Of a DNA stretch of 64,000 nucleotides, positions 4,842 to 29,565 are shown in pieces. The notes beneath the pieces are model-generated. The model was not told where the DNA came from. It worked only from the letters and a program-made list of their open reading frames with translations, and ran no database searches. The stretch's first letter is position 1. Each line of letters begins with the position of its first letter. The stretch lies in contig NZ_AUFO01000011.1 in assembly GCF_000426545.1 (NCBI RefSeq), positions 217,202 through 281,201 of the forward strand. Reading direction: 5' to 3'. The stretch is from Paenibacillus massiliensis subsp. panacisoli DSM 21345. Lineage in GTDB: Bacteria; Bacillota; Bacilli; Paenibacillales; Paenibacillaceae. Position numbers and translations under genes: made by a program.

Positions 4842-5630
4842 TTACCTCCTATGATGTAATCCTGTATTCGGAATGATTAAGGGATATCCGTCCATGAACG
4901 TCACCCTGGCCTCCAGTTCGTAGACCTGACGCAGGAAATCTGCGGTTAACAGCGTGCTCGGCTCACCATCTGCGACGATGCGTCCACGCTTCATGGCAAT
5001 CATGTAGTCACAATACGCAGCAGCCTGCTGCAGATCATGGAGCACCATGACGATGGTAAGCTTTCGCTTGCGATTCAGATCTGTCAGCATGTTCATTAAA
5101 TCCAGTTGATGAGCCATATCCAGATAAGTGGTCGGTTCATCGAGCAGCAGAATATCCGTTTGTTGGGCGAGCGCCATCGCAATGCGCGCCTTTTGCTGTT
5201 CACCTCCAGATAGAGTATGGATAAGCCGATCCGCGTAAGCCAGAACTCCCGTAGCTGTCATTGCTGCCTGGATGGCTTCTTCGTCCTCATCATTCAGTCG
5301 TCTGCTCAGCAGACGCTTATGGGGAGAACGACCATAGGCTACAAGCTCCTTGACGGTCAGATCGGGGAAGCCCTCGCGGGACTGGGGAAGCATAGCCACC
5401 AATGTGGCGAATTGTCTGGGCGATAACGTATCCGCAGGCTGCTCCATGATGCGAATCTGACCCTGCTGTATGCGTAGCAGACGAGTAACGGCCTTGAGGA
5501 GTGTGGATTTGCCAGAGCCATTCGGCCCTACAATTGCTGTCATTTGTCCCTGTGGGAACAGGGCCTCAATGTCCTTCAGACGGAAGCCGCCACGCTCTAC
5601 GACAAGCTCCTTAATATCAATGGCCTTCAT
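4842..5630 (-). CDS. ABC transporter ATPase, heme/siderophore type
   Basis: A 262-residue FecE/FhuC-type ATPase. Visible motifs are Walker A (GPNGSGKST, about residue 36), Q-loop (MLPQSREG), signature (LSGGEQQ), Walker B with D-loop ([11 protein letters not shown]) and H-loop (VLHDL). It overlaps the permease gene by 4 bp. It would power import through the FecCD permease at 5627-6631. Confidence 0.92.
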
Positions 5631-6631
5631 GTCATGGCTCCTCGCTTCCTTAATAGGATCAAGAAGAATGGAGCACCAAGGCAGGCCAGCAATATTCCTA
5701 CCGGCAGCTCGATCGGATCGAACCAGGAGCGTGCGATCGTATCCGCGAATACGACCAGCGCTGCTCCACCCAGCATCGAGGCTGGCAGCAGCACACGGTA
5801 ATCCTCTCCGGCGATCAGCCGAATCATATGCGGTACGACTAGACCTACGAATCCTACCAGCCCAGCGACACTTACTGCAGCTCCTGCCAGCAGTGAGGCT
5901 AGTAGGATAATCAGCACACGCTGCAGCTCTACTCTCTGACCGAGCAGCTTGGCGGCATCGTCTCCGAGAAGCAGCACATTCGCCGGGCGAATAGCAGCCA
6001 GAGAGAGCAACAGTCCGATCAGCGCATAGGGAGTAATGAAGCTTAGATGATACCAGCTACGACCGTTCAAGCCACCGGCGAGCCAAGGTAATACGGCTTG
6101 GACTCTATCGCTGTAGATGACCATAATGCCGTTGGTAACTGCACCGAGAAGGGCGTTAACCGCAACTCCTGCAAGTACAATCTTCACCGGCGAGGCCCCT
6201 TTATCCCAAGCGAGTACATACACTACAACTGAGGTGAGGAAGGCGCCAGCGAATGCAGCAACAGGGAGCAGGTACCCCAATTGTGGCAGCATGACCATGC
6301 AGATCATGGCCGCCAGCCCACCGCCAGCCGAGACGCCTATAATTCCTGGATCAGCGAGAGCGTTCCTCATCACACCTTGGAGCAATGCACCCGAGGCTGC
6401 GAGGCAGGCTCCGACCAGGAGTCCAGTCAGCACACGCGGAATCCGAAGATCCATGATGATGGTGGTGTAGGCCGTGTTGTCTTGGCCTGTGAGCGTCTGC
6501 ACAATATCCCGCAGAGAGATAGGAACCGAGCCATAGGTAAGGCCATACAGGCATGAAGCGATGAGTAGAACAGGCAATATCAGCATGACGAGGCGTCTGC
6601 GTCGATCCCGCTGCTGTACTTGGGGCATCAA
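5627..6631 (-). CDS. FecCD-family iron/heme ABC transporter permease
   Basis: A 334-residue polytopic membrane protein with FecCD landmarks: LRIPRVLTGLLVGACLAASG near the N-terminus, NALADPGIIGVSAGGGLAA, and GLVGFVGLVVPHMIRL near the C-terminus. It overlaps its neighbours by 4 bp on both sides (ATGA junctions), forming a tight SBP-permease-ATPase-IsdG operon. Confidence 0.93.
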   Translation of the reverse strand: MMPQVQQRDRRRRLVMLILPVLLIASCLYGLTYGSVPISLRDIVQTLTGQDNTAYTTIIMDLRIPRVLTGLLVGACLAASGALLQGVMRNALADPGIIGVSAGGGLAAMICMVMLPQLGYLLPVAAFAGAFLTSVVVYVLAWDKGASPVKIVLAGVAVNALLGAVTNGIMVIYSDRVQAVLPWLAGGLNGRSWYHLSFITPYALIGLLLSLAAIRPANVLLLGDDAAKLLGQRVELQRVLIILLASLLAGAAVSVAGLVGFVGLVVPHMIRLIAGEDYRVLLPASMLGGAALVVFADTIARSWFDPIELPVGILLACLGAPFFLILLRKRGAMT

Positions 6632-7608
6632 CGGACATCCCTCAGGATGCTACCGAGCACATCCAGGGCTTCAGTAACCCGGGTGCCCGGGTTCGTACCG
6701 AACAAATCCGAAGGCAGGACCTCGACACGACCGGATTGAATGGCACTCATCCGATTCCAGGCCGCATTGACTTGCATTTCTTTTAGAAATCCACTCTTGA
6801 CGGCCTCTGGATTCCCGTGGGTAATGATCAGCACGAATTCGGGATCTGCTTCAATAATTCGCTCCGTGTTCAGCTGTGCATATTGTGGATAGTTCTCTAG
6901 CTGTGGGAAGTCCGCAGCAATGTTAGCTCCACCAGCGAGGCTTAATAGATCCCCGCTTAGTGAATTGGGGAGAGCAGCCATGTAAGTGCCTGGTGCCCCA
7001 TAGACCATCAGTACACGTGGCTTATTGGCTGGAACCTGCTGGGACAAGGTAGCAAGCTTGCCATTGAGTGTCTCAATCAGCTTGGTAGCTTCAGCCTCCT
7101 TGTGCAGCATGCTGCCGAACAGCTCAATCTGTTGCTTGATATCTGCCACGGAGTTAGCACTGGTAAGGACCATTCTGGAACCAAGGCTCTCAACGGTTGC
7201 AGTATCCTTTGCATTCAGAGCGGCATTACCCAGTACAACGTCAGGCTTGACGTAAGCGATCTTCTCCAGATCCAGCTCGTGGGTCGTTCCGATCTGCTCG
7301 ACCTGTTCAGCCGCCTCTGGAACAGGCCCTCCCTCCACTGCAGGTCTACCAACAAGCTGTCCGCCAAGTGCATAGATGACATCCATATCCCCGCTGCTTA
7401 GTGCGGCAATTCGCTCAGGAACCTGATTGAATGTAATGGACCGTCCGGCAAAATCAGTAATGCTGTAGGACGCTGCGGTGTTGGAGGAGGGGGGTGAACT
7501 GCCAGCACCGGATGCCGATAGGTGGGCATCTTCAGCACCAGTAGCACAGCCTGATAGGGCAAATAGTAGAAATCCAGCACCAAGCAGGCCGTTTATTTTT
7601 GTACGCAT
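6628..7608 (-). CDS. Heme/iron substrate-binding lipoprotein (Peripla_BP_2 fold)
   Basis: From ATG at 7608 (AGGAG upstream) the 326-residue protein has a signal peptide with lipobox LSGC (Cys21) and a BtuF/IsdE-like two-lobe sequence. A longer frame upstream of 7608 has no proper ribosome binding site. The second lobe has IITHGNPEAV, equivalent to the His region of IsdE. The first lobe has IGTTHELDLEKI where the paralogue at 14046 has the heme Met (NPMSPDME). The ligand may therefore be heme bound differently, or another iron chelate. Confidence 0.88.
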   Translation of the reverse strand: MRTKINGLLGAGFLLFALSGCATGAEDAHLSASGAGSSPPSSNTAASYSITDFAGRSITFNQVPERIAALSSGDMDVIYALGGQLVGRPAVEGGPVPEAAEQVEQIGTTHELDLEKIAYVKPDVVLGNAALNAKDTATVESLGSRMVLTSANSVADIKQQIELFGSMLHKEAEATKLIETLNGKLATLSQQVPANKPRVLMVYGAPGTYMAALPNSLSGDLLSLAGGANIAADFPQLENYPQYAQLNTERIIEADPEFVLIITHGNPEAVKSGFLKEMQVNAAWNRMSAIQSGRVEVLPSDLFGTNPGTRVTEALDVLGSILRDVR

Positions 7609-7704
7609 AAGACAAACACTCCTGTGGTCAATCTGATGATAAAGATTCAAAATGTGAAAATTAAAATTCGTGGAAATTAATAGAAAGAGAAGCAATTTGA
7701 TTAA

Positions 7705-7733
7705 ATGATAATGAATATCAATATCACTGTCAA
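7705..7733 (-). promoter_or_regulatory. Promoter of the left heme-uptake arm
   Basis: On the minus strand TTGACA (7733-7728) and TATCAT (7710-7705) are 17 bases apart, close to the sigma-A consensus. The Fur box at 7706-7720 overlaps the -10 and spacer, a position where Fur would block polymerase. The leader to the ATG at 7608 is about 90 bases. Confidence 0.7.
7706..7720. promoter_or_regulatory. Fur box (7-1-7)
   Basis: TGATAATGAATATCA differs from the consensus TGATAATNATTATCA at one base. It predicts iron-dependent repression of the SBP-permease-ATPase-IsdG operon. Confidence 0.8.
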
Positions 7734-7772
7734 CAGAATTGTGAAATAATCTTAATGAATTTTACAAACCTA

Positions 7773-7802
7773 TTGACAACTTAAAAACGAGTGGGCTAAT
7801 AT
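7773..7802 (+). promoter_or_regulatory. Sigma-A promoter inside the divergent intergenic region
   Basis: TTGACA (7773-7778), an 18-base spacer and TAATAT (7797-7802) form a strong-looking rightward promoter. It has no overlapping Fur box. A terminator at 8014-8043 would stop its transcript before the NEAT genes. Confidence 0.55.
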
Positions 7803-7808
7803 CAAGGC

Positions 7809-8043
7809 GAGTTGTCATGTCATGCCTGTTTTTTACATATATCAAAGAGGTGAGGCCTATAGGTAGCTTGAAAGTGCTATTTTTAAAATGCTGTTAAAAG
7901 AATTTGTGTAGTCTTAATTGCACCTAAATCGCACCTAGAGCTTGAGAGCTAAGTAATTGTAAAAAGCACTGAAGTCAGGCATGCTGACGCAACAAAGACA
8001 TACATTAAAAAACAAAAATTGCCTGCCGAGGGCAATATTTTTT
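7809..8043 (+). ncRNA. Candidate small RNA or attenuated leader
   Basis: The segment runs from the predicted start of the 7773-7802 promoter to an intrinsic terminator. No convincing gene lies in it. The only short frame with a possible ribosome binding site is a 15-codon one starting GTG near 7851. It could be a free small RNA or a leader that is sometimes read through into the NEAT operon. Function is unknown. Confidence 0.3.
8014..8043 (+). terminator. Intrinsic terminator ahead of the NEAT operon
   Basis: AAAAATTGCC (8014-8023) pairs with GGCAATATTTTT (from 8031), ending in a T run; A and T runs on both sides could make it work both ways. It lies upstream of the NEAT promoter, so it ends a different transcript. 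Confidence 0.55.
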
Positions 8044-8053
8044 CAGGATTTAT

Positions 8054-8068
8054 TGAGAATGATAATCA
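8054..8068. promoter_or_regulatory. Fur box of the NEAT operon
   Basis: TGAGAATGATAATCA differs from the 7-1-7 consensus at two bases. A half-site (TGATTATCA, 8089-8097) overlaps the predicted -10 downstream. Fur would repress the right arm in parallel with the left. Confidence 0.75.
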
Positions 8069-8069
8069 A

Positions 8070-8098
8070 TTGCTATTAACTTAACTTTTGATTATCAC
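8070..8098 (+). promoter_or_regulatory. Probable promoter of the NEAT operon
   Basis: TTGCTA (8070-8075), 17 bases, then TATCAC (8093-8098). The -35 is adjacent to the Fur box and the -10 lies in a further Fur half-site. The start codon is at 8129 with AAGGAG at 8114, giving a short leader. Confidence 0.45.
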
Positions 8099-8128
8099 TC
8101 GGTGGACTTTGGTAAGGAGAGACAAGAA

Positions 8129-8974
8129 ATGTTCAAGAAAAAGTGGTTCGGTCCTGTCCTGTGGGCAGCGATTATCGGAGTAAGTCTTACTTGGGGGCCA
8201 GGATTGCAGGCTTCGGCCGCAGACAAGGCATTGAAGAATGGAGAATACACGTTGGATTACAACATTCTCAAGGCGGAGAATGACTCGGTATCCATGGCTA
8301 ACGATTACTTTGAGAAGCCTGCCCGGATCTACGTCAAGGACTCGAAGATTGAGATGGAGATCCAATTGAATCATAGCGAATGGATTACAGATTTCAAGAC
8401 GGCTCGCGGAAGTAGTTATTCCGATGTGCGTGTAATCAGCAATAACGCGGCCAAGGATACTCGCGTGGTGCGATTCCCGGTGGAGAGTCTTTCGACTCCG
8501 CTGAAATCACAGATTCACGTGACGGTACCTTCCGTCGATTATGATCACGATTACACCATTCGCTTTGACTTCAAGCAGGACAGCCTTACCCAAATCAACG
8601 CATCACAGACCGCACAGAAATCTTCTTCTGCCTCCGGCACAGCAGCTTCCAAGGATACGAAAGTATCTAAGGACGTCAAGGCTGCTTCTGGATCAGCCCC
8701 AGCAGCGTCTGCAAGCACCGAGAGCAAGCAGTCAACGGATACCAAGGTAGTAGCTTCCTCGTCACAGGTAGCATCGTCAACAGGTGGCCAAGCTACTGGA
8801 AAAGCATCCGTTGCCGAATCTCAGCAAAGCGGTGCGGTGGCCGCGAACACTGTAAATCAGCCAATAGAGGATAATCCGCATACTGGAGATGAGGTTCCTT
8901 ATGGCTGGCTGCTTGTAGGCCTTGCTGTATCTGCCCTGTTCATCGGAAGAACGGTGCTGGCGGCTAAGAAATAA
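8129..8974 (+). CDS. isdC: Cell-wall-anchored single-NEAT heme protein (IsdC-like)
   Basis: A 281-residue secreted protein: signal peptide, one NEAT domain (about residues 33-150), a Ser/Ala/Lys/Thr-rich wall-spanning linker, and a C-terminal sorting signal with DNPHTGD, hydrophobic segment and KK tail. The heme-binding features are intact: the 3-10 helix Ser-to-Tyr stretch (SVSMANDY) and YDHDY in the last hairpin. ATG at 8129 follows AAGGAG; the longer GTG frame at 8102 lacks this spacing. NPxTGD suits a class B sortase, encoded at 16870. By analogy with IsdC it would pass heme through the wall to the lipoprotein. Confidence 0.88.
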   Translation: MFKKKWFGPVLWAAIIGVSLTWGPGLQASAADKALKNGEYTLDYNILKAENDSVSMANDYFEKPARIYVKDSKIEMEIQLNHSEWITDFKTARGSSYSDVRVISNNAAKDTRVVRFPVESLSTPLKSQIHVTVPSVDYDHDYTIRFDFKQDSLTQINASQTAQKSSSASGTAASKDTKVSKDVKAASGSAPAASASTESKQSTDTKVVASSSQVASSTGGQATGKASVAESQQSGAVAANTVNQPIEDNPHTGDEVPYGWLLVGLAVSALFIGRTVLAAKK

Positions 8975-9031
8975 GCTTGACGAATACGAATGGATTCCAA
9001 CCAAACCCCAATGAAGAGGAGAATGATATCC

Positions 9032-9502
9032 ATGAAAAAAATGATGCTTCCCGTAATGGCTTTGATCCTGTCCCTGTTCACAGTACTTGGTTCTGCTTCA
9101 GCAGCAACAACAGCAACAGCAGCAGCTCCGGCTGACGGCAATTATACAGTTCAATTCAAGGTGCTTAAGGATGGTACAGATACGGCTTCCATGATGGATA
9201 CTTACACCGTGAAACCAGCCCAAATCAAGGTGACTAACGGTCAGGCTTATGCTTACGTGACTTTGAAGAACAGCAGCTGGATTACTAAATTCCAGGTAGA
9301 ACAAAATGGACAATATGTGAACGCTGAAGTAATCAGCACGAACCCAACAGCGAACACACGTGTTGTGGGATTCCCGGTAGCAGACCTGTCCGCGAAGCTG
9401 AATGCATACACTGAGGTGTCTGTACCAGCGATCAACTACAGTGGCCAATATGAAGTGCAGATCAAATTCGACACAGCTACACTGGCTGTTGCGGCCCAAT
9501 AA
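9032..9502 (+). CDS. Secreted single-NEAT hemophore
   Basis: A 156-residue protein with a signal peptide (cleavage after ASA) and one NEAT domain filling the mature part. No sorting signal follows, so it is probably released, like IsdX1 of Bacillus anthracis. The heme motifs are present: TASMMDTY and YSGQY. ATG at 9032 is preferred because GAGGAG lies 10 bases upstream; earlier in-frame ATGs at 9011 and 9023 are too close to it or have none. Confidence 0.87.
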   Translation: MKKMMLPVMALILSLFTVLGSASAATTATAAAPADGNYTVQFKVLKDGTDTASMMDTYTVKPAQIKVTNGQAYAYVTLKNSSWITKFQVEQNGQYVNAEVISTNPTANTRVVGFPVADLSAKLNAYTEVSVPAINYSGQYEVQIKFDTATLAVAAQ

Positions 9503-9658
9503 TAAAGCGATATCTAACAACCTTTGTTTTTTACGAGCACTCCAGCTGTTGCAGCCGCTGCTAGTGGCTGCGACGGATCTGGGGGCCGGTTCATTATGGA
9601 TATAAACAGCGGACGCGAGCAGATCGCGGCTACATTTGATTAAGGGGAGAACATTACA

Positions 9659-12600
9659 TTGAATAGATTAGTCAAGCAGACTGCCTCTGTATTTTTCGCG
9701 CTCTGTCTATTATTGAGTTCCTTGCAAATACCAGGCTGGGCAACTACAGCTTCGGCTGCTTCGGGTGAAGAGGCGCGTCTTACGGGATCTGCACCAGATT
9801 CCAATGGTGAAGTACGTGTGAATGTAGGCTTTGGTGGAGTTACAGACAGTGTATACACCAGCGTATATGGTCATACAGCTCAAATTTCTTATGATGACCA
9901 GAAGCTTGAACTGATTACCTCGAATTCCTTGCTGAACGGATTTAGCGTACAGACGACTCCGCAGGGAACAGGCAAGGTATTGGTACAATCGACGGCGGAT
10001 TCCCTCGAAGATGGTGGGGCTGCAGTCAATCAAAATGCAGTACAACTGGTGTTCAAGACCAAACCAGCAGCACAGGCTGCGAATACGACAATAGAGCTGG
10101 AAGCGGCTTCTGTAACGAATGTTAACGGGGATTCTTTTAGCTTTGCTAACCTGGGTTCCTATGATGTGACGATTCCGGCAGCAACAACTTCTGCAGCGAT
10201 CCCGGACGGGACATATAAGCTAGGCTTCAACATTCTTAAGGATGGCACAGATGATACTTCTGTTATGTATCAATATGTGGATGCAACCAGTGGCAAGCTG
10301 GAAGTCATTAATGGCAAGCAGTATGTTTCTTTCGAATTAACGCAAGATCAGGAGATCACAGGCTTTAAGACTGAGATCAACGGACAATTGCAAGATGCAG
10401 CAAGAACGTCCGTCGAGGACAATCGGGCTATCGTTCGTTTTGAAGTAGCGGATGTAAATGAGCGACTGAATGGATGGGTCAAAATCTACTGGGATATGAC
10501 CGCTATTATGGGTTTCCCATTCATTTATGATGAAGAATACAATGTCGACCTGACTTTTGATACAAGCGGTATTGTGATTACTCCTCCTGCAAGCACAACT
10601 CCTATCAAGTTCAACGTTCTGAAAGACGGGACTGATGACACATCATCCATGAGCAGAAGTGTTGACCTGAACAGTGGTGAGCTGAGTGAAGTGAACGGGA
10701 AGAAATACGTATCCCTCAAGCTGCTGAGCAGCAGCATGATTACCTCATTCCAGACGGAGCTGAACGGTACATTCGTGGAGACGGAGAAGGTAAGTGAGGA
10801 TGCGGCAACGAATACGCGGATCGTTCGCTTTGAAGTAACGGATCTGACGAGCCGTCTGAAAGGAAAAGTATCCGTGAATGCAGGTCCTATGGGCTTGATG
10901 GTCCATAATGTGGATCTGGTGTTCCCGGAATACTACCAAGCAGAAGCTCCAACAACTCCTATTAAGTTCAACGTATTGAAGGATGGCACAAACGATGTAT
11001 CATCCATGAGCAGAAGTGTGGACCTGAACAGTGGCGAGCTGAGCGAAGTGAACGGGAAGAAATACGTCTCCTTCAAGCTACTGAGCAGCAGCATGATTAC
11101 CTCGTTCCAGACGGAGCTGAACGGTGCATTCGTGGAGACAGAGAAGGTAAGTGAAGATGCAGCGACGAATACGCGGATCGTTCGCTTTGAAGTAACGGAT
11201 CTGACGAGCCGTTTGAAAGGGAAAGTATCGGTAAATGCAGGCCCTATGGGCTTGATGGTGCACAATGTGGATTTGGTGTTCACAGACTATCTGAGAGTAG
11301 ATACTCCAATTAAGTTCAATGTTCTCAAAGATGGAACGGACGAGACATCGTCCATGAGCAGAAGTGTGGATCTGAGCAGTGGTATATTGAGCGAAGTAGG
11401 CGGGAAGAAGTACGTCTCCTTCAAGCTGCTGAGCAGCAGTATGATTACTTCGTTCCAGACGGAGCTGAATGGTACATTTGTGGAGACAGAGAAGGTAAGT
11501 GAGGATACGGCGACGAATACGCGGATCGTTCGCTTTGAAGTAACGGATCTGACAAGCCGTCTGAAAGGAAAAGTATCCGTGAACGCAGGCCCTATGGGCT
11601 TGATGGTGCACAATGTGGATCTGGTGTTCACGGACTATTTCAAAGGCGATACTCCTGTAACTCCTGAGCCTGTTCCTAACCCAGATCCAGAGGTTATTGC
11701 CGATGGAACCTATCCGATTGCATTCAATATCCTCAAAGAGGGTACGAATGAATCATCCGTTATGTACACGTATGTAGACCAGAACAGTGGCCAACTGACT
11801 GCTGCTAATGGCAAATACCATGTAACGTTCACATTGAAGCAAAGCAAGGAGATTACCAGCTTCAAGACCGCAGTTAACGGCGTACTCACCGATACGGAAG
11901 TGGTAAGTCAGGATACAGGAGCTAACCAACGTACCGTTCGTTTTGAAGTGCCTAATCCAAGTGAGCGCCTGAAAGGCTGGGTGCAGATTGATTGGCCTGC
12001 GATCTCGTACCACGAAGCATACAATGTGGATCTGGTATTCTCACTGGATAATGTCCCTGGAACCCCGGTAACACCTGGTAATCCAGAGACACCAGTCACT
12101 CCAACACCTGTACCAGGTGGCGGTGGTGGCGTTACACCTCCTAAGAGTGAGGATGGCGTGTACAGCATCAACTTCAGAGCGTTCTATCCGGATGGTGTGA
12201 AGGAATCCCGTATGTCTACGTATCTGGTAAGCCCGGCGACCCTTAATATTATGGGCAACCGCAAGACCATCTCGATTACGGTCAAAGAGAGCAACTATAT
12301 TCTCGGCATGCAAGTGAACAACGGTAGCGGATATGAAGAAGTGACTACGGTAAGTTCCGATTCTGGACAAAACACTCGCGTCATTTCCTTTGATGTCAAT
12401 GATCTGAATCAGCCGGTATGGTCCAAGGTTCAGGTAGATATTCCGGAGATCAACTATTCCGGTGATTATGATGTACTGTTGGTATTCTATCCAAGCACGA
12501 TCAAAGAAGGAGCACCAGACCCATATGTGAGCTCTGGCGAAGTGCCAGCAGTAAGTCTGCTGGAGGATGGAGAATACTCCATTCCACTGGAGGTGAAGGA

Positions 12601-13828
12601 TACTGCAACTGGTCGTCTGTCGTCCGTGCAGGATAGATTCATCAGCCCGGCTGGCTTGATCGTAAGCAACAAGAAAAATGAAGTTCAGTTGACGATTCGT
12701 CAAAGTGATACAGTGTCCGATATCGAGATTGATAGCGGTGAGGCTTATAAAAAACCGACGGTAGTCCGTGAAGATGCGAAACAGAATGCTCGTGTCATCA
12801 AGTTCGCAGTTAACGATCTGACGAAGCCAATCTTCATGAATGTAAACGTGGCAGGTAATGAGCACAAGCTGCAAATTACCTTCAACATTGGCGACATCGA
12901 AAAGGGTCTGCCTAAAGCTTATGTAGAACCAGCACCGCTTCCGGAGCCTGTTCTGGAGGAAGGACAGTATAACGTTGGCTTCAAGCTGTCTGGTCCGGAA
13001 GGTGTCGATCAATACTTCGGAGAAGGAGCATCTCTCACAGTTAAAGATGGCAAAGTTCAAGCACGTGTTACATTGAACCGTAGCTCATCTGTGAAGGACT
13101 TCACTGTGCTGCAAGGCGACAGCTATGTATCACCAGAGGTGAGTGCTAATGACGAGACGCGGGATCAGCGTCAGGTAACGTTCACACCAGATTCATTGGT
13201 TCAGCCGCTAAAAGCGAAGCTGCACATTACAGCACCTGTAACTCCTGCTCCGGCTGCTGATCAAGCAGGTGTGACAACAGGATCTGCAAGCTTTGAGCAA
13301 CCGCTGTTCCTGAGTGCACTATCTGCTCTGACAGAGAATGCTGCAGCAGCTCAAGCACTTGAGCAGCAAGCTGAGATCGTATTGGCTGATGGTGAATATG
13401 ATCTGGAGCTCACGTTCGATGCCAATAGCATTAAGCGTGTTCCTGTAGCTACAGCTGATACGGCTGGGCAGAATGGAACGACTTCCGGGTCCGGTGCTTC
13501 TGCATCCACCACAGATACTTCAACCAATGGAGACAGAACGCCGAATTCCTCCTCTGATAAGAACACTGCAGCTGCCACACCAGGTAAAGCTGGTGCGAAC
13601 GGACAGGAAGACGCACAGCCTGCCTTTGACCGCAATGCAGATGCGAATCAGGGAGGGGCACGTAATGCCTCGACTACGGGCGCAGAAGCAACAGGAGCCG
13701 CAGGAGCACGTAACTCTGACAACCCTTCAACGGGTGATAACTCTCCTGTAATGCTCTATGCCATGCTGATGGCGGGATCTGCAGCGATGCTGATTCGCTT
13801 CCGTCTGCAGCGCAAAAAACAGCAATAA
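9659..13828 (+). CDS. Giant wall-anchored protein with cohesin-like domain and eight NEAT-like modules
   Basis: A 1389-residue surface protein starting at TTG 9659 behind AAGGGGAG. Order: signal peptide; cohesin-like domain (about 35-175, with ISYDDQKLEL and VQLVFKTKP); NEAT1 (180-308); near-identical NEAT2-4 (314-426, 433-545, 549-661); NEAT5 (680-800); NEAT6 (830-945); NEAT7 (967-1080); NEAT8 (1098-1262, with about 50 extra residues before the last strand); low-complexity linker; DNPSTGD sorting signal (about 1354) with membrane segment and RKK tail. The YxxxY heme motif is kept in NEAT1 (YDEEY), NEAT5 (YHEAY) and NEAT6 (YSGDY) and lost in 2, 3, 4, 7 and 8. It probably captures heme or hemoproteins at the cell surface. 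Confidence 0.9.
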   Translation: MNRLVKQTASVFFALCLLLSSLQIPGWATTASAASGEEARLTGSAPDSNGEVRVNVGFGGVTDSVYTSVYGHTAQISYDDQKLELITSNSLLNGFSVQTTPQGTGKVLVQSTADSLEDGGAAVNQNAVQLVFKTKPAAQAANTTIELEAASVTNVNGDSFSFANLGSYDVTIPAATTSAAIPDGTYKLGFNILKDGTDDTSVMYQYVDATSGKLEVINGKQYVSFELTQDQEITGFKTEINGQLQDAARTSVEDNRAIVRFEVADVNERLNGWVKIYWDMTAIMGFPFIYDEEYNVDLTFDTSGIVITPPASTTPIKFNVLKDGTDDTSSMSRSVDLNSGELSEVNGKKYVSLKLLSSSMITSFQTELNGTFVETEKVSEDAATNTRIVRFEVTDLTSRLKGKVSVNAGPMGLMVHNVDLVFPEYYQAEAPTTPIKFNVLKDGTNDVSSMSRSVDLNSGELSEVNGKKYVSFKLLSSSMITSFQTELNGAFVETEKVSEDAATNTRIVRFEVTDLTSRLKGKVSVNAGPMGLMVHNVDLVFTDYLRVDTPIKFNVLKDGTDETSSMSRSVDLSSGILSEVGGKKYVSFKLLSSSMITSFQTELNGTFVETEKVSEDTATNTRIVRFEVTDLTSRLKGKVSVNAGPMGLMVHNVDLVFTDYFKGDTPVTPEPVPNPDPEVIADGTYPIAFNILKEGTNESSVMYTYVDQNSGQLTAANGKYHVTFTLKQSKEITSFKTAVNGVLTDTEVVSQDTGANQRTVRFEVPNPSERLKGWVQIDWPAISYHEAYNVDLVFSLDNVPGTPVTPGNPETPVTPTPVPGGGGGVTPPKSEDGVYSINFRAFYPDGVKESRMSTYLVSPATLNIMGNRKTISITVKESNYILGMQVNNGSGYEEVTTVSSDSGQNTRVISFDVNDLNQPVWSKVQVDIPEINYSGDYDVLLVFYPSTIKEGAPDPYVSSGEVPAVSLLEDGEYSIPLEVKDTATGRLSSVQDRFISPAGLIVSNKKNEVQLTIRQSDTVSDIEIDSGEAYKKPTVVREDAKQNARVIKFAVNDLTKPIFMNVNVAGNEHKLQITFNIGDIEKGLPKAYVEPAPLPEPVLEEGQYNVGFKLSGPEGVDQYFGEGASLTVKDGKVQARVTLNRSSSVKDFTVLQGDSYVSPEVSANDETRDQRQVTFTPDSLVQPLKAKLHITAPVTPAPAADQAGVTTGSASFEQPLFLSALSALTENAAAAQALEQQAEIVLADGEYDLELTFDANSIKRVPVATADTAGQNGTTSGSGASASTTDTSTNGDRTPNSSSDKNTAAATPGKAGANGQEDAQPAFDRNADANQGGARNASTTGAEATGAAGARNSDNPSTGDNSPVMLYAMLMAGSAAMLIRFRLQRKKQQ
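10598..11641 (+). repeat. Three tandem near-identical NEAT-coding repeats
   Basis: Copies begin near 10598, 10955 and 11303 (periods about 357 and 348 bp). Long stretches are identical at DNA level, including the part coding MITSFQTELNG and the GPMGLMVHNVDL end. This suggests recent duplication or ongoing conversion. Confidence 0.9.
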
Positions 13829-18470: not shown

Positions 18471-19673
18471 TCAGATCTTAACTAAGTTTCCAAAGCGCTC
18501 TTTTATTTTTTCGGATGCATTTATTTTCATCTTATGCGTCACGTGAGTGTAAATTTTTAGCGTCGTCTTAGCATCATCATGACCGACACGGTCCATGATT
18601 GTTTTTAGGTCCACTTCTGCTTCAGCGAGCATGCTGATGTGTGTGTGTCTGAAAATGTGAGGCGTCGCTTCCTTTTTAATCGATGTTTTTGCTAATAGTC
18701 TAACCATCCGATCAAGAATTCTTTTGGGGAAATTCGGGTAACCATTTTTACGACCAAAAACAAAATTCTTATCTTCATAATCATCGAATACTTTTTTGAA
18801 TTCCGCCCTGCGATCCGGCAGCGTCAGAATGTGCTTTTCCAAACCACTCATGACGGTATCAATTATGCCAATTCTTCTTATTGACCCCTTTGTTTTAGGC
18901 GGGGTCAATTTATACTTCCGCATATTGTTCTTTGGATAGTATACCGTTTTTGTAATGCGGATTTCGTTTGAATCAAAAAAGAAATCGGTGTCTTTCAAAG
19001 CGCATAATTCCCCAGACCGCATGCCAGAAAAGGCCAATAGGTGGAAAATTTCATTATCCATATACAACCCGTATTTTTGAGCAGCCCACAAAAATTCTTC
19101 CAGCTCATTTCTCTCAAGTATTTTCTCCTGAATCGGATCGTTTTCGATTTCCTCTATCGTGAGTATCTTTGCTGGCACGAAGGTGTCAATGAAGGGATTG
19201 TCCAGTCTCCATTTGTGCTTAATCGCATACTTTATGACCATCTTTGCAGTAGAATTGATACCTTTAATAGTTGTTGTAGCATAGTCCTTATCATCTAGAT
19301 CGTTGAGCATATTTTGATGATGCTTATAAGTTAACTTGATGACTGGGACTTTCCCGTAATAGCTATTAATAACTTTAAGCTCTGCTTTTCGTATATCAAC
19401 AGTTCGTTCTTTTACCTTTGTTTTAGCATAGTCTTTCAACCATTCTTCCCCAGCTTCCTCGAAAACAACCTTGTTGAGCGTTCGGCTATCTGCATCGTGC
19501 TTAATATAATCGTCTAACGCTTTCTCGGCCCTGGCTAAAGCTTCTTTTTGACTGTCGCCCCTTCGGGGTATTTGCTTTCGTTTGCCTGTCACTGGGTCCG
19601 GTGGCCCTTCCAGTGTACATATCCACTTATACCCTTGTTTATTGTTTGCCTTGATTTTGGTGTAAGATGCCAT
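18471..19673 (-). CDS. int: Phage tyrosine integrase
   Basis: A 400-residue tyrosine recombinase. It has an N-terminal AP2-like arm-binding part (1-60), a SAM-like core-binding domain (about 65-165) and a catalytic domain. Catalytic residues are Arg219 (FSGMRSGEL), a Lys near 260-262, His339 and Arg342 (HIFRH), His365 (GHDD) and Tyr375 (IYTHVT). ATG at 19673 is preferred, with GAGGAG 9 bases upstream. It faces the host boundary, the usual place next to attL. Confidence 0.95.
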   Translation of the reverse strand: MASYTKIKANNKQGYKWICTLEGPPDPVTGKRKQIPRRGDSQKEALARAEKALDDYIKHDADSRTLNKVVFEEAGEEWLKDYAKTKVKERTVDIRKAELKVINSYYGKVPVIKLTYKHHQNMLNDLDDKDYATTTIKGINSTAKMVIKYAIKHKWRLDNPFIDTFVPAKILTIEEIENDPIQEKILERNELEEFLWAAQKYGLYMDNEIFHLLAFSGMRSGELCALKDTDFFFDSNEIRITKTVYYPKNNMRKYKLTPPKTKGSIRRIGIIDTVMSGLEKHILTLPDRRAEFKKVFDDYEDKNFVFGRKNGYPNFPKRILDRMVRLLAKTSIKKEATPHIFRHTHISMLAEAEVDLKTIMDRVGHDDAKTTLKIYTHVTHKMKINASEKIKERFGNLVKI

Positions 19674-19740
19674 GATGAACAACTCCTCGCTGCTACAGAT
19701 GTTGGCAAGAACATGAGGGAAGGACTATAGGACTTATACA

Positions 19741-24678: not shown

Positions 24679-24906
24679 TTGAACATTGTACAGCAACGGA
24701 TTAATGAGCTTGAGCAAATGCGGAATCGCTTGGAAATAACCCAACCAGAGGATGGCACTTGGGGATGGTGGCTAGATCGCGAAATTGCGGAAATAAAAAA
24801 TGCCCGCCTGGCAGGGCGGACACTTAGCTTGAGAACCCGACTAAGGTCTCTTGTGCTGTCTATTGTAGCAGTGCAACAGCCTGAAAGCAAGGGTGAACGC
24901 GCATGA
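24679..24906 (+). CDS. Hypothetical early protein
   Basis: 75 residues from TTG at 24679, with AGGAGGA ending 9 bases upstream. Helical N-terminus (VQQRINELEQMRNRLE). Part of a chain of overlapping early genes. No family recognised. Confidence 0.55.
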   Translation: MNIVQQRINELEQMRNRLEITQPEDGTWGWWLDREIAEIKNARLAGRTLSLRTRLRSLVLSIVAVQQPESKGERA

Positions 24907-25160
24907 CAGCACAAAAGGCTAGTGCAATCATCCAACAATATACCACTGCAGCGCAGGCCCTTCGCGAGAATACAGCATCGATGTCGGCCGCGATCGGTGA
25001 CGGTCTTCCTGATCCTTATCAACTCGAACAGATTTGGGCTGAGCGCGATGTAATCTATCTGAATTGGCATAATGCCGCCGCGGTGATGCGTGAGCTGCCG
25101 CAAGAATACTTGGCACAAGCCGTGGCAGCCATTGAACTAATGAACGGAGGCATAGCATGA
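24903..25160 (+). CDS. Hypothetical early protein
   Basis: 85 mostly helical residues, overlapping its neighbours by 4 bp on both sides (ATGA-type junctions), which supports translation. No family recognised. Confidence 0.6.
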   Translation: MTAQKASAIIQQYTTAAQALRENTASMSAAIGDGLPDPYQLEQIWAERDVIYLNWHNAAAVMRELPQEYLAQAVAAIELMNGGIA

Positions 25161-25453
25161 ACAACCGCGATGTACTGAAGTTATTGAAAGAATCAGCACC
25201 TATGAGGAACACCTTCCCTTCGGATGAAGTGGAAAGGTTGATAGAGGTATATGAAGACTCGATAGACCTGCTTCAAGAGAAGATTGATCGCTTAGAACAG
25301 ATGGAGGAATTGGGCGACACGCTTCAGGATCGCCTTGAAAAATACGAGTCACGCATGGAGTCGTTGGAGGCAGCAAAGGAAGCTCTTGAATCATTGAAAG
25401 ATACATTCACGGAGTTGGAAGAAGCGATTGACGATTTGGAAAGCACATTGTAA
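25157..25453 (+). CDS. Coiled-coil early protein
   Basis: 98 acidic residues; from about residue 28 the sequence is a near-continuous heptad coiled coil rich in Glu and Leu. It ends three bases before the hammerhead ribozyme. Its partner is unknown. Confidence 0.6.
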   Translation: MNNRDVLKLLKESAPMRNTFPSDEVERLIEVYEDSIDLLQEKIDRLEQMEELGDTLQDRLEKYESRMESLEAAKEALESLKDTFTELEEAIDDLESTL

Positions 25454-25455
25454 CA

Positions 25456-25518
25456 CCCGCCTGACGAGTCCGCAGCGGAGCGGACGAAACCTAGCCCCAT
25501 CGGGGCGACGGTAGCGGG
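25456..25518 (+). ncRNA. Type I hammerhead self-cleaving ribozyme
   Basis: All parts are present in order. Stem I CCCGC (25456-25460) pairs with GCGGG (25514-25518). The core CTGACGA is 25461-25467. Stem II GTCCGC (25468-25473) pairs with GCGGAC (25480-25485) over a six-base loop. The core GAAA is 25486-25489. Stem III pairs A25489-C25491 with G25510-T25512, then has a small internal loop and a 5-bp GCCCC/GGGGC helix capped by ATC. The predicted cleavage is after A25513 (GUA), 37 bases before the next start codon at 25551. Ends open on stem I, hence type I. Confidence 0.93.
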
Positions 25519-25550
25519 AAACCGCAATACATAGGGAAGGAGGACATACC

Positions 25551-25799
25551 GTGCAAATCATCAGCAAGCTTACCGTTGTCAGCAATCCGACTAGGGTTTT
25601 TGAGGTCGGGACGGAGATCGGTGGCCGTGAGGTCATTGAGATCAAACAGGTGGGAGCCGAATACGAAGACCGCACGCATTCAGAGTTTCTTATATCTGAT
25701 GAAAATGGGGAACTGATCGCAAGTGTCGAAAACGCGCCTGTGATAGTGGATTGGAAGACGATTGCGATAGACGGACCTGTACCAGAAGGGAGGAACTGA
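25551..25799 (+). CDS. Hypothetical phage protein translated from the ribozyme 3' product
   Basis: 82 residues from GTG at 25551 with GGAAGGAGG upstream. Sequence suggests a small beta barrel (FEVGTEIGGREVIEIKQV, FLISDENGELIASV). Self-cleavage would leave its mRNA with a 5'-hydroxyl end about 37 bases before the start. No family recognised. Confidence 0.65.
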   Translation: MQIISKLTVVSNPTRVFEVGTEIGGREVIEIKQVGAEYEDRTHSEFLISDENGELIASVENAPVIVDWKTIAIDGPVPEGRN

Positions 25800-26013: not shown

Positions 26014-26214
26014 ATGAAAACGACTGCTATTACTCTTGATTTGTCCGAGCAATCCATCGATGCGACCGTGCGACCAGCAATGCAGTATACTCCAGCGATC
26101 CTGTCAGTGACGGGAACGTTTGGCACTGTGGAGCTGTGGGCAGGCGACGAACAACTTGCGGCTGTGGCTACTGCTATAGCTGACCATCTCGCGAAGGGTG
26201 GTACTGCTGTATGA
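26014..26214 (+). CDS. Hypothetical phage protein
   Basis: 66 residues from ATG at 26014 with AAGGAGG 5 bases upstream; the longer frame from 25921 would cross the hairpins. It overlaps the ATPase gene by 4 bp. No family recognised. Confidence 0.6.
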   Translation: MKTTAITLDLSEQSIDATVRPAMQYTPAILSVTGTFGTVELWAGDEQLAAVATAIADHLAKGGTAV

Positions 26215-28226
26215 AGGAAATCGTGCTTGTGTCCCTGACCCTTCGTAATTTCAAAGGTATACGGAACTTTGCGCTGGAAACTGGCAGCAGTAGCGTGTCC
26301 GTCTATGGCGACAATGCCACGGGCAAGACGACGCTATTCGACGGATTTGTTTGGGGCTTGTTCCATAAGGATAGCCAAAATCATTCACTCTTTGAAATCA
26401 AGGGATTGAACGAACAAGGGCAGGTCGCAGAACGCGGGATCGAACATGAAGTAGAGGTGGTACTGATGGTTGACCGCCGCCGCCGCTCCTTTAAGAAAGT
26501 CCACTACGAAAAATTCACCAAGAAGCGCGGATCTGCAATCGCTGAATCCAACGGGAATACCACTGATTATTATGTGGACGGCGTTCCTGTGAAATTAAAT
26601 CAATACAACGCCGAAGTCAACGGGCTGATTAGTGAGGACGTCTTCAAGCTCCTGACAAGCCCTGCCTACTTTAATGAGCAGCTTAAACCCGAAGCACGCC
26701 GTAAGGTGTTACTTGATGTTTGTGGTGACATGACGGATGCCGAAATTATTGCCAGCAACGGGCAATTAGCGCCGCTGGCCAGCATCTTAGGTGATAGAAG
26801 CCTTGAAGATCACCGGAAGGTGATCGCAGCTCGACGGGCTGAAATCAACAAGGAGTTGGAGAAAATCCCGGTCCGCATCGATGAAGCCCGGCGCACCATT
26901 CCAGATGTTACTGAACTGGACGCGGAGCTCCTGCAGGAAGACATAGACACTCTGCGTGGTAGGGAAGCGGCTAAGGTCGCTGAGCAGCAACGCATACAGT
27001 CCGGCGGCGAGCTATCGGCCAAGGAGATCCGCTTGCGTGAGATCAACGCGGAGCTGACAGAGATCAAGCAACGTGTTCAGGCCGATGGAGTGCAAGCAGC
27101 CAATGAGCAACGCACACGGGTCATGCAGCTTCGCGGAGAAGCATCTGACATACAGGCTCAAATATCAGCGAATCAACGAGAGGTCGAGCAATACAAGCGG
27201 CAGATCGCACGAGCTGAGGCTATGGCTACACGGTTACGGGAAGAGTGGACTGCCGCAAACGCACTAGAGTTTCCGGTGCATGAGCATCAGCATGACAGCA
27301 ATTGCCCAACATGCGGCCAAGCTCTCCCTGACGATCAGGTGCAGGCTGCTCAAGACAAGGCGTTGGAGGATTTCAACCTTAACAAGTCTCAACGATTGGA
27401 GCGGATCAGCAAGGATGGTACTGCAGCAGCGGCAGATGTTAGAACCTTGAAAAATTCGATGTTCGCTGTTGAAGAACAAATCATCGAATTTGAACAGACG
27501 CTGGCCGCGAAGCAGGCCACTCTCGCAATCGCTGAAGCTAAGCTATCTGACCTGCAGGCTGCGATCACTGATCCGGCGGACGATGTTGAATACCAAGCGA
27601 AGTTGGCCGAAGCCACGGCGGTACGTGCAGAGATTGAGCAGCTTCGAACTTCTTCTGCAGATGCGATCGCAAAAGTTCAATCCGAGCTTCGAGTGATCCG
27701 TCAGCAGGTGGACGAACATGAGGCAGATAAGGCCAAAATCGTCCAGGCTGCAGCGACAGAGGGACGGATCACCGAACTGGCCGCTCAGGAGCGCAAACTG
27801 GCTGCAGAGTACGAGCGCCTGGAGCATGAGCTTTTCCTGACGGAAGAATTCACCCGTACCAAGGTATCCATGCTGGAGAGCAAGATCAATAGCAAATTCC
27901 GCTTTGCGCGGTTTCGCTTGTTCGAGGAACAGGTCAATGGCGGGCTCAAGGATGTGTGCAAGACGCTGTATAAGGGCGTTCCTTACGAGGGCGGTCTGAA
28001 CAATGCGGCGCGGATCAATGTAGGGCTGGACATCATAAACGCGCTTGGCCAGCATTACGGCTTCTCAGCTCCAATTTTTGTTGATAACGCTGAGGCGGTA
28101 ACGCAACTGATCGATACCGACGCCCAGGTAATCCGCTTAGTGGTGTCCGAAGGAGACAAGCAACTTCGTTTGGAAAGAAGAAGTGATGATAGCTTGATTC
28201 CAGTAAATATTGAGGTGATTGCATGA
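26211..28226 (+). CDS. SbcC/RecF-like AAA ATPase with zinc-hook motif
   Basis: 671 residues: N-terminal ATP-binding half with Walker A GDNATGKT (33-40), long coiled coil (about 210-580) interrupted by a CPTCG zinc-hook-like motif near residue 365, and a C-terminal half with IFVDNAEAV. The last is the Walker B position, but Asn replaces the usual catalytic Glu, and no LSGG signature is seen. Such ATPases act at DNA ends, usually with a nuclease; none is adjacent. It is followed by RecT, so it probably serves phage recombination. Confidence 0.85.
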   Translation: MKEIVLVSLTLRNFKGIRNFALETGSSSVSVYGDNATGKTTLFDGFVWGLFHKDSQNHSLFEIKGLNEQGQVAERGIEHEVEVVLMVDRRRRSFKKVHYEKFTKKRGSAIAESNGNTTDYYVDGVPVKLNQYNAEVNGLISEDVFKLLTSPAYFNEQLKPEARRKVLLDVCGDMTDAEIIASNGQLAPLASILGDRSLEDHRKVIAARRAEINKELEKIPVRIDEARRTIPDVTELDAELLQEDIDTLRGREAAKVAEQQRIQSGGELSAKEIRLREINAELTEIKQRVQADGVQAANEQRTRVMQLRGEASDIQAQISANQREVEQYKRQIARAEAMATRLREEWTAANALEFPVHEHQHDSNCPTCGQALPDDQVQAAQDKALEDFNLNKSQRLERISKDGTAAAADVRTLKNSMFAVEEQIIEFEQTLAAKQATLAIAEAKLSDLQAAITDPADDVEYQAKLAEATAVRAEIEQLRTSSADAIAKVQSELRVIRQQVDEHEADKAKIVQAAATEGRITELAAQERKLAAEYERLEHELFLTEEFTRTKVSMLESKINSKFRFARFRLFEEQVNGGLKDVCKTLYKGVPYEGGLNNAARINVGLDIINALGQHYGFSAPIFVDNAEAVTQLIDTDAQVIRLVVSEGDKQLRLERRSDDSLIPVNIEVIA

Positions 28227-28480
28227 GTGAAGTTGTGACGGTCAAGGTCATAACTGGGACAGGTTGGGAAGGTCTTCGACGCGAAACGCTGGAGATCAAT
28301 GGAAAAGAGGTTATGGATGCCGGACCGCTTTCTGAATGTCCAGAGGATGCCATATTAGAACGCGACTTGTTAGGGCCTGCCGACTTCGCCAGTTTGCTGA
28401 AACGCTTTTTATTAGAACATCAAGGAAAAAAGGTTCGCTTCATGTACGAAGACGCATCAGAGGAGGATGAAGAAGAATGA
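28223..28480 (+). CDS. Hypothetical protein of the recombination operon
   Basis: 85 acidic residues overlapping the ATPase and RecT genes by 4 bp each. The very acidic C-terminus (EDASEEDEEE) is typical of small phage proteins that compete with DNA or bind basic partners. No family recognised. Confidence 0.6.
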   Translation: MSEVVTVKVITGTGWEGLRRETLEINGKEVMDAGPLSECPEDAILERDLLGPADFASLLKRFLLEHQGKKVRFMYEDASEEDEEE

Positions 28481-29565
28481 GCGACTACTCAACAACACTA
28501 ACCAAAGTGAATGACAACTACTTCCCTATGATCGAGCGGCAGCTCGTCGGAAATGGCATCAAGATGGATGAATATGCGAAATCCTGTGTCTTGAATGCTA
28601 TTTCTGCCATTAATACTGCTTTAGACGCGAAGGGTATCAACTGGAACGACGAGCAGCTTGATAAGAGTAACATTACCCAAATTCTGCTTCAAACCGCTTC
28701 GTTGAAACTCAACGCCGCAGCTAGCCCAAGGGAAGTTTACTTCCAAGTCCGCAATACGAAAGTAAAGGTTGGAGGGCAAGACGTTTGGAAAAAGTCAATT
28801 GAAATGGGGATCGAGGGGGATGGCAATGATGCCATTCTCGCCCGCTTTGGACGGGACGTGAAGAAGGTAGGTCAGTTCTGGCTCGTTCGATCGGAAGATA
28901 CATTCACATATCCCGTGTATACCGGATTCGATGTACAGCCGCCAACATGGCAACCAACTGGGAAAGGCGATGTTGTAAAAATCGTTTACCCGATCATGAA
29001 GAAAGACGGAACAATCGAGTTTCACATTGCAGAACGAGACGATGTTGCTCGTAACCTCATTGCTCACATGAACAACAACATGATGAATGAGACGTTTGGT
29101 GTGTGTGCTGATCGCTTTAAAGCGAATGCCGAACAGAAGAAGCAGATTGCCGCTAAGAAGTCTGAAATCCTTCAAAAAGCAAAGTCTTTGGGACTTGGCG
29201 CACTGGACGATCCTGAATTACAACAGTACATCAGTCCTGCCTGGAGCGAACCGCAAAGTCGCGAATCCATGCTTATCCGAAAGATGCGGAACAATGTGGT
29301 CAAAAAGATTCCGAAGGACTTTGGCAACGCCCTGGTCGAGCTTTCATACACCGAAGCGACTGATGAATCTTACTCTGAGGTGCAACGGGAGATCGCGGAA
29401 CATGCAAATACAGAACCTATCGATGTCACGCCGCCTGCAGGTGCTCAGCCTCAGAGCGTTGACGATACGCTGCCATCAGATCAGGAAGATGGCTCAAACC
29501 AAGCCGAATTGGAGTTTGGCGATGAGGATGGGGATAACGTATCAGACGGCGACGTGCCGTTCTGA
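28477..29565 (+). CDS. recT: RecT-family single-strand annealing protein
   Basis: 362 residues. The central part (ASLKLNAAASPREVYFQVRN, then a beta-rich region to about 190) resembles phage RecT-like annealases of Bacillus. The C-terminal 75 residues are a disordered acidic tail ending DGDVPF, like single-strand-binding proteins. Neighbours (SbcC-like ATPase, MBL-fold protein) support recombination. No YqaJ-type exonuclease is seen beside it. Confidence 0.78.
   Translation: MSDYSTTLTKVNDNYFPMIERQLVGNGIKMDEYAKSCVLNAISAINTALDAKGINWNDEQLDKSNITQILLQTASLKLNAAASPREVYFQVRNTKVKVGGQDVWKKSIEMGIEGDGNDAILARFGRDVKKVGQFWLVRSEDTFTYPVYTGFDVQPPTWQPTGKGDVVKIVYPIMKKDGTIEFHIAERDDVARNLIAHMNNNMMNETFGVCADRFKANAEQKKQIAAKKSEILQKAKSLGLGALDDPELQQYISPAWSEPQSRESMLIRKMRNNVVKKIPKDFGNALVELSYTEATDESYSEVQREIAEHANTEPIDVTPPAGAQPQSVDDTLPSDQEDGSNQAELEFGDEDGDNVSDGDVPF

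Follow-up and report, generated by a model that had tools for sequence, protein, structure and literature searches.

A type I hammerhead ribozyme motif with an intact core and three stems is confirmed at positions 25456–25518 of the window, as we call the whole 64,000-nt stretch of Paenibacillus DNA analysed here, and it lies among the early genes of a prophage, in a slot that related prophages fill either with a hammerhead or with a second structured RNA, referred to as RNA X. The best explanation, which we regard as modestly probable, is that this hammerhead cuts the early mRNA in cis and splits it into two units, the downstream one of which would be protected by a hairpin at its 5′ end. The initial annotation had described a complete hammerhead with both core segments and three stems at these coordinates, and direct reading, folding, shuffles and the family model R3 all agree with it; the claimed position between co-directional early phage genes is likewise supported, by the open reading frames and by the prophage genes. 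It did not foresee the pseudoknot between loop II and the 3′ tail, the constancy of the slot while its neighbours are swapped, the alternation with RNA X or the hairpin of the 3′ product. The motif, its fold, the covariation of stems and pseudoknot, and the constancy of the slot are apparent at the level of sequence comparison.

Read 5′ to 3′, the element consists of CCCGC, CUGACGA, GUCCGC-AGCGGA-GCGGAC, GAAA, ACC-UA-GCCCC-AUC-GGGGC-GAC-GGU, A17, GCGGG, AAA and CCGC, the first A of stem III being at the same time the last A of the GAAA core (Table 1). Among the nine hammerheads of the slot (L126–L130, L132–L134 and L143, of which L127 is the window) the window alone has A17 and the other eight have C17; a hammerhead with A17 may be slower than one with C17. 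The core agrees with the consensus C3 U4 G5 A6 N7 G8 A9, G12 A13 A14 A15, U16, H17, here with A as H17, as this consensus is listed in the available part of Perreault et al. 2011 (PMC3088659). The extent of 25456–25518 given in the initial annotation holds for the motif; the tail CCGC, however, also belongs to the element, and stem III is interrupted by a UA/GAC internal loop. An internal loop of the form UA/GAN is seen in stem III of 30/74 parsed hammerheads of Paenibacillaceae (90 family loci minus 16 unparsed), and the helix beyond it changes sequence.

Table 1 Features of the hammerhead element and its neighbours (positions in the window)
Feature	Position	Strand	Basis
Gene g, upstream neighbour in most relatives	24903..25160	+	ORF, homology
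Coiled-coil gene, phrog_30245 (unknown function), TAA stop 2 nt before stem I	25157..25453	+	PHROG match
Stem I, 5′ strand CCCGC	25456..25460	+	direct reading, fold
Catalytic core CUGACGA	25461..25467	+	direct reading
Stem II, 6 bp, GTCCGC (25468–25473)/GCGGAC (25480–25485), loop AGCGGA	25468..25485	+	reading, fold, compensatory changes in relatives
Loop II GCGG, candidate pseudoknot partner of 25522–25525	25475..25478	+	complementarity; loop–tail pairing covaries across hammerheads
Core GAAA	25486..25489	+	direct reading
Stem III, ACC/GGT, internal loop UA (25492–25493)/GAC (25507–25509), distal helix GCCCC/GGGGC	25489..25512	+	fold; distal helix covaries
Predicted cleavage between A25513 (A17) and G25514	25513..25514	+	direct reading, relatives
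Stem I, 3′ strand GCGGG	25514..25518	+	reading, fold
GCGG-GAAA-CCGC, predicted hairpin at exact 5′ end of 3′ product	25514..25525	+	fold of cut product
CCGC tail, candidate pseudoknot partner of loop II	25522..25525	+	complementarity, covariation
UACAUA, equal to the motif reported for B. subtilis EndoA	25528..25533	+	common to 14/14 located gene i leaders
Shine-Dalgarno GGAGG	25539..25543	+	direct reading
Gene i, the small beta protein gene of the initial annotation, GTG start 25551	25551..25799	+	ORF, homologues
SbcC-like and RecT-like recombination genes, same early gene string	26211..29565	+	ORF, homology

Three stems, with loops on II and III and an open stem I, are found in the minimum-energy folds of 90 and 70 nt. 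The unconstrained fold of 25446–25535 (90 nt) is the hammerhead three-way junction together with a weak outer helix, in which part of CCGC is engaged (z -2.6; 2/200 shuffles fold equally well), and that of 25456–25525 (70 nt) is the three-way junction alone. In the minimum-energy fold of 150 nt, stems II and III are present and GCGG pairs with the downstream CCGC, replacing stem I; the corresponding fold of a relative, L006, likewise departs from the hammerhead. Folding programs ignore the tertiary contacts of ribozymes. A stem-and-core parser with cut-offs of at least 4, 5 and 3 pairs for stems I, II and III finds one motif in the 64 kb, at 25456–25518, compared with 0.0033 per dinucleotide shuffle (300 shuffles).

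The covariance check against the Rfam hammerhead model, suggested in the initial annotation, did not reach its threshold. A scan of the 64-kb window at the gathering threshold gave no match, and RF00163 (Hammerhead_1), the top Rfam match at a permissive threshold and on the correct strand, scores 15.7 bits where the gathering cut-off is 34 (E 0.4, 201 bases). This cut-off is, however, a curation threshold and not a defining property of hammerheads, and its strictness is apparent from L147, a parser-complete hammerhead with the sequence of P. daejeonensis record L098, which at 30.4 bits also falls below it. The window hammerhead has the core, stem order and strand of RF00163 and differs in its longer loops and in the internal loop of stem III. 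Decisive is the match to an independent family model: because model R1 contained the window hammerhead, R3 was built without it and without L120, which is the sole other slot member of the earlier set as judged from its flanks. Composed of 15 hammerheads from other places, R3 gives the window hammerhead 74.8 bits (E 5.8e-16 over 155 kb) and the next-best match in the window 14.5 bits (E 0.45), and it also recovers 8/8 fetched slot relatives (L162–L169).

Homologues of the window hammerhead have covarying stems. In 15 hammerheads excluding the window, both partners have changed in 26 cells of stems and pseudoknot, as compared with 8.8 in shuffles (reached in 0/500), while two of the five measures are weak, namely pairs changed on both sides (41/500) and further pair types (22/500). 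Alignments A2 and A7 hold 17 and 15 chosen sequences, respectively. The R1 model has one match in the window (E <= 10) and one in the 6.3-Mb genome (E <= 0.001); clustering with several hammerheads per phage operon was thus not found with R1, the element being single copy in both. Hammerheads of this model occur in 16/75 genomes of the genus and in 71/394 of Paenibacillaceae, counts from which weak matches are lost, as searches over 40 genomes (these two and the family count of RNA X) were filtered more strictly.

Judged by complementarity, the GCGG of loop II (25475–25478) can pair with the CCGC (25522–25525) that starts 3 nt 3′ of stem I. Permutation tests identify this arrangement as that of a pseudoknot-stabilised hammerhead, in which loop II is paired to bases next to stem I. 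Of 122 distinct hammerheads, 48 can join loop II to the 3′ flank by an uninterrupted run of four or more Watson-Crick pairs, compared with a mean of 16 and a maximum of 25 in 200 re-dealings of the partners; pairing of loop II with the 5′ flank is at chance (11 vs 13 of the 122). For Paenibacillaceae, where 35 hammerheads were parsed out of 90 loci and the other 55 are without a parsed hammerhead, loop II–tail pairing is found in 31/35 as against 22 (maximum 28, 500 re-dealings). Loop and tail co-vary while the GCGG of stem I stays, as GGAUA/UAUCC (L153, L251), AGUG/CACU (L144) and GGG/CCC (L249, L271); L155 and L254 are without a four-pair loop II–tail pairing. The available part of PMC3088659 puts the share of hammerheads with such a pseudoknot at about 40%.

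We also considered GCGG-NNNN-CCGC, i.e., the hairpin that the 3′ product would form, as the main conserved pairing, and rejected it: it is found in 38/122 hammerheads vs 20 (maximum 28), but it is at chance within Paenibacillaceae. There, GCGG:CCGC pairing occurs in 27/35 compared with 26.2 (maximum 27) for re-dealt partners, because stem I hardly varies, and the hairpin is therefore without covariation support of its own. Since only the pseudoknot beats re-dealt partners in this family, we regard the pseudoknot as what is under constraint and the hairpin as a putative additional use of the same letters. The cut 3′ product folds to a terminal GCGG-GAAA-CCGC hairpin (centroid -7.7 kcal/mol) with a GNRA-type loop, which is GAAA, GUAA or GCAA in 9/9 slot hammerheads; in L144, outside the slot, the pseudoknot is kept and the hairpin broken. 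As the hairpin shares its letters with stem I and the pseudoknot, the structures are mutually exclusive, and as CCGC is used by both, it may be the uncut ribozyme for which the GNAA loop is conserved. The 150-nt fold, in which the hairpin replaces stem I, and the deviating fold of L006 suggest that the hairpin might compete before the cut. On this folding model, a hairpin that wins only after the cut would make the cut irreversible, and one that wins before it would hold the ribozyme off.

The prophage is marked by an integrase (18471–19679), repressor-like HTH genes, SbcC-like, RecT-like and DnaB-like genes, terminase subunits and a portal gene, and the early genes around the hammerhead are probably carried on one polycistronic mRNA. 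In the window one gene, encoding a coiled coil, separates gene g from the ribozyme. No Pfam or PHROG match was obtained for gene i at E 0.001, nor a blastn match for 25157–25799 against phage records. The initial annotation's estimate that the predicted cut falls 37 nt before a phage start codon proved correct, the codon being the GTG at 25551, at which the homologous region of gene i begins in 14/14 located homologues.

In eight related prophage loci (L162–L169) a hammerhead occupies the corresponding place. Gene g, 35–44% identical in the 7/8 that have it (none was found in L169), directly precedes the hammerhead in 6/8, where the UGA of the core is its stop codon; in L162 gene g and the hammerhead are separated by an X element and other sequence. 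The next gene downstream is a homologue of gene i in 4/8, and none was found downstream of the slot in the other four, while all eight loci have, further downstream, homologues of other early genes of the window, among them an SbcC-like gene in five. With gene g diverging, gene i swapped and the place constant across the window and the eight prophages, the ribozyme stays while its neighbours change.

A search of 75 genomes of the genus yielded 14 gene i loci in 11 genomes and 18 gene g loci in 17 genomes, all 32 of which were scanned with both RNA models. Upstream of gene i there is a hammerhead in 4 and RNA X in 10, which accounts for 14/14 loci, and downstream of gene g 7 loci have just a hammerhead, 10 just X and 1 both RNAs, accounting for 18/18; no empty slot was encountered among the 32. 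The locus with both RNAs, in G018, has the order g, X, other sequence, hammerhead, i. The X model, R2, was built from ten X sequences of these loci and matches there by construction, and since several loci are near-identical, neither 14 nor 18 counts independent events. Swapping of flanking genes around the hammerhead, and the variety of other sequences that hammerheads adjoin, would also fit a selfish or neutral RNA module sitting at a recombination joint with no role for the genes on either side. We consider such a module quite unlikely, as structure, pseudoknot and slot persist although the proteins have diverged strongly, and as each of the 14 gene i leaders holds one of two structured RNAs.

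RNA X, first recognised by inspecting the gap in those relatives that lack a hammerhead, is a covarying RNA of roughly 90 nt that forms three abutting hairpins without linkers: P1 (GACARG..YUGUC), P2 (UCUCC..GGAGA) and P3 (GAUGCG-GCUGA-CGCAUC). Copies lie in L171–L173, L176–L179, L181–L183, L185 and L186, and also in many of L202–L239 and L417–L453, both in the slot and elsewhere. A first reading of X as one long hairpin was abandoned, since wider sampling favours three adjacent ones. In alignment A6, which holds 31 of 44 extracted sequences (the excluded L435 looks like a false match), 91.6% of the cells pair and 61 changes on both sides compare with 18 in shuffles (0/500). Nearly all of these fall in P2 (7/8 pairs), with one case in P3. 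Because P1 pairs in 81% of cells in this 31-copy alignment with no change on both sides, and because one of five measures, further pair types, is not above shuffles (260/500), P1 rests partly on sequence reading.

Rfam gave no match in 12 X loci (E <= 5), nor to X in L223, L226 and L233. The element is present in 47/388 Paenibacillaceae genomes (E <= 0.001), and its 3′ signature in 45 viral stretches, though not every one of them carries X in full. Ten leaders of gene i carry X: in five of them P3 immediately precedes the same AAUACAUA-Shine-Dalgarno leader, in the manner of the hairpin of the cut hammerhead, and in the other five X and this leader are separated by another folded stretch. A hammerhead followed by P2–P3 of X, as if replacing P1, occurs in L240 (G224) and in the viral contig L428. 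It is possible, though we put it forward tentatively and as the less probable outcome, that the gene i slot requires a cis-acting RNA cutter, either hammerhead or X, and that in X the phages of Paenibacillaceae have an undescribed self-cleaving class or an element dedicated to processing. X could equally be an antiterminator or a protein site, position alone speaking for a ribozyme. Two ribozyme classes are known to share locations, and this has been used to look for further classes (PMC10085705, part available), a logic of shared location that makes X a concrete candidate.

Letters resembling a tRNA T arm (GGTTCGAATCC, GTGCAAATCC or similar) follow the hammerhead or X in some of L143, L147, L158, L176, L177, L179, L182, L183, L223 and L233, and other leaders among these hold arms like CAAGGTGG/CCACCTTG after either RNA. 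ARAGORN reported no tRNA in 14 sources with or near such stretches, a set that leaves out L223 and L233.

The relation of hammerheads to the ends of upstream genes was examined with mechanically called ORFs, excluding hammerheads with less than 400 nt of flank. A same-strand ORF of at least 50 aa ends 0–16 nt before the core in 66/135 hammerheads and in the core's own UGA in 37/135, the latter partly automatically, because any frame entering the core terminates there. ORF ends fall in the range -8 to 60 for 107/135, the corresponding figures being 20% for positions drawn at random within these loci and 35/135 for the opposite strand; 24/135 hammerheads lie inside a same-strand ORF. Stops so close to the core, the use of the core UGA as the stop of gene g in 6/8 slot prophages and the supplanting of stem I in the 150-nt fold could point to a gated ribozyme, which ribosomes ending the upstream gene would block by covering stem I and core, or which would be kept inactive by the GCGG:CCGC refold, cleavage thereby coupling the two genes. 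We judge gating of this kind unlikely: close packing is normal in phage genomes, the window's own stop is a TAA outside the ribozyme, and the core-UGA cases and the predicted refold are subject to the reservations given above on reading frames and on folding programs.

A role in mRNA processing, as suggested by the initial annotation, is on our model the likeliest one. In the mechanism that we favour, the loop II–CCGC pseudoknot would help to keep stems I and II parallel, and the RNA would cut itself after A25513 during transcription, with a chemistry that is probably that of its family. Because the body of a type I hammerhead stays with the upstream product, the upstream mRNA would end in two hairpins, stems II and III, with a 2′,3′-cyclic phosphate, and thus in a hairpin-capped 3′ end right after the stop codon. 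The downstream mRNA would start with a 5′-OH and GCGG; stem I and the pseudoknot would then open, and GCGG and CCGC would form a blunt GNRA-type hairpin before UACAUA and the Shine-Dalgarno sequence. The cut early mRNA would become two units with independent half-lives, the 5′ hairpin shielding the downstream unit from RNase J1, the attacker of the B. subtilis glmS 5′-OH product. Cleavage in the lysogen, refolding and stabilisation of the downstream RNA are what we infer from this scheme.

In B. subtilis, the 5′-OH product of glmS is degraded by RNase J1, and processed operon mRNAs carry a 5′ 'stabilizing hairpin' (PMC11780869, in the part available); taken together, these lead us to propose that a single phage element does both the cutting and the protecting. 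The same degradation of the glmS product is also compatible with an opposite outcome, in which the exposed 5′-OH lets RNase J1 remove the downstream early mRNA and so limits the mRNA of the following genes. This we find improbable, since the product would begin blunt in a GC hairpin and since the Shine-Dalgarno sequence and start codon follow at once in 14/14 gene i leaders.

The hexamer UACAUA is present in 14/14 gene i leaders (L170–L183). It occurs 12–112 nt after hammerhead cuts in 26/83 windows, compared with 3.2 in shuffles (at most 9), and the same count is 0 upstream of hammerheads and 0 in the following 100 nt; 25/62 X tails contain it. On the plus strand of the 64-kb window there are 12 copies, of which just one precedes RGGAGG within 14 nt. 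As a side reading, cutting by EndoA may be envisaged at this site: the hexamer fits the motif reported for B. subtilis EndoA in the part of the literature available, and genes of the PemK/MazF family are found in 5/5 genomes examined.

Several other hammerheads deserve description. One extra U between A9 and stem II is seen in 31/74 parsed Paenibacillaceae hammerheads (L244, L247–L249, L252, L257–L260 and others), and a pattern for such hammerheads matches at least 120 viral stretches. Viroid hammerheads with one extra nucleotide after A9 are known. The extra nucleotide was discarded as a novelty, since insertions of one or two nucleotides are allowed in the available part of PMC10085705. In L277, L292, L294 and L296, and similarly in L289, a 16–17 nt insertion with the potential to form a hairpin (GCGCnnnnGCGC-CUUG type) lies between A9 and stem II, and a hairpin-forming insertion at this place amounts to a four-way form of the hammerhead; in known alignments, as far as covered by the available part of PMC10085705, insertions between A9 and stem II do not exceed one or two nucleotides. 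A second recurrent context consists of a hammerhead, a short hairpin, letters like CCTTTACATAgATT and TTCTTTGA, and then unrelated sequence (L096, L104, L122, L149–L153, L157, L160). Two viral contigs hold ten parsed type I hammerheads each, L084 at 5983–12634 and L089 at 5149–9600 (minus strand); by eye, 8/10 of those in L089 are closely followed by a Shine-Dalgarno-like stretch and an ATG. Viral hammerheads in L030, L052, L057, L064 and L067 have, also by eye, a separate, changing hairpin directly 3′ of stem I in several copies, e.g., GGGAAATAATTCCC and GGAACATTGGGTTCC.

Hammerheads in prophages, the pseudoknot, clustering and the idea that they cut long phage mRNA have already been described. 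In the available part of PMC3088659 the cutting of phage transcripts into gene-length mRNAs is put forward as a proposal, and activity in vitro is given for clustered bacterial hammerheads, and for those of A. tumefaciens in E. coli as well. The window hammerhead shares with the phage hammerheads described there the core consensus, the open stem I form, the pseudoknot, the intergenic position in a prophage and the proposed transcript cutting; unlike the clustered ones, it is single copy in a fixed slot, is exchanged with a structured RNA and has a GNRA-type hairpin at the 5′ end of the product. The name 'Paenibacillus' is absent from the main text of that paper, and the titles and abstract openings examined, on hammerheads of Paenibacillus and of phage operons, contain no description of this family. 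Two features may be new to a specialist: the exchange between hammerhead and X, and the hairpin-forming insertions that separate A9 from stem II.

Compared with the glmS ribozyme of Firmicutes, both elements are self-cleaving near a start codon and leave a 5′-OH, the cleavage being predicted in the present case. The glmS ribozyme has another fold and is ligand dependent, and we know of no protective 5′ hairpin for it. The processing of B. subtilis cggR-gapA by RNase Y likewise places a hairpin at the 5′ end created by a cut within the operon, but there a protein enzyme cuts and leaves a 5′ monophosphate (PMC11780869, part available).

The role of prokaryotic hammerheads is counted among the open questions of the field in the available part of PMC6155905. 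The prophage family described here constitutes a small orthologous system, with one ribozyme, one slot and natural relatives in which the RNA is swapped, and with B. subtilis as a cultivable Firmicute relative whose decay enzymes are known, the role of the 5′-OH hairpin is directly testable.
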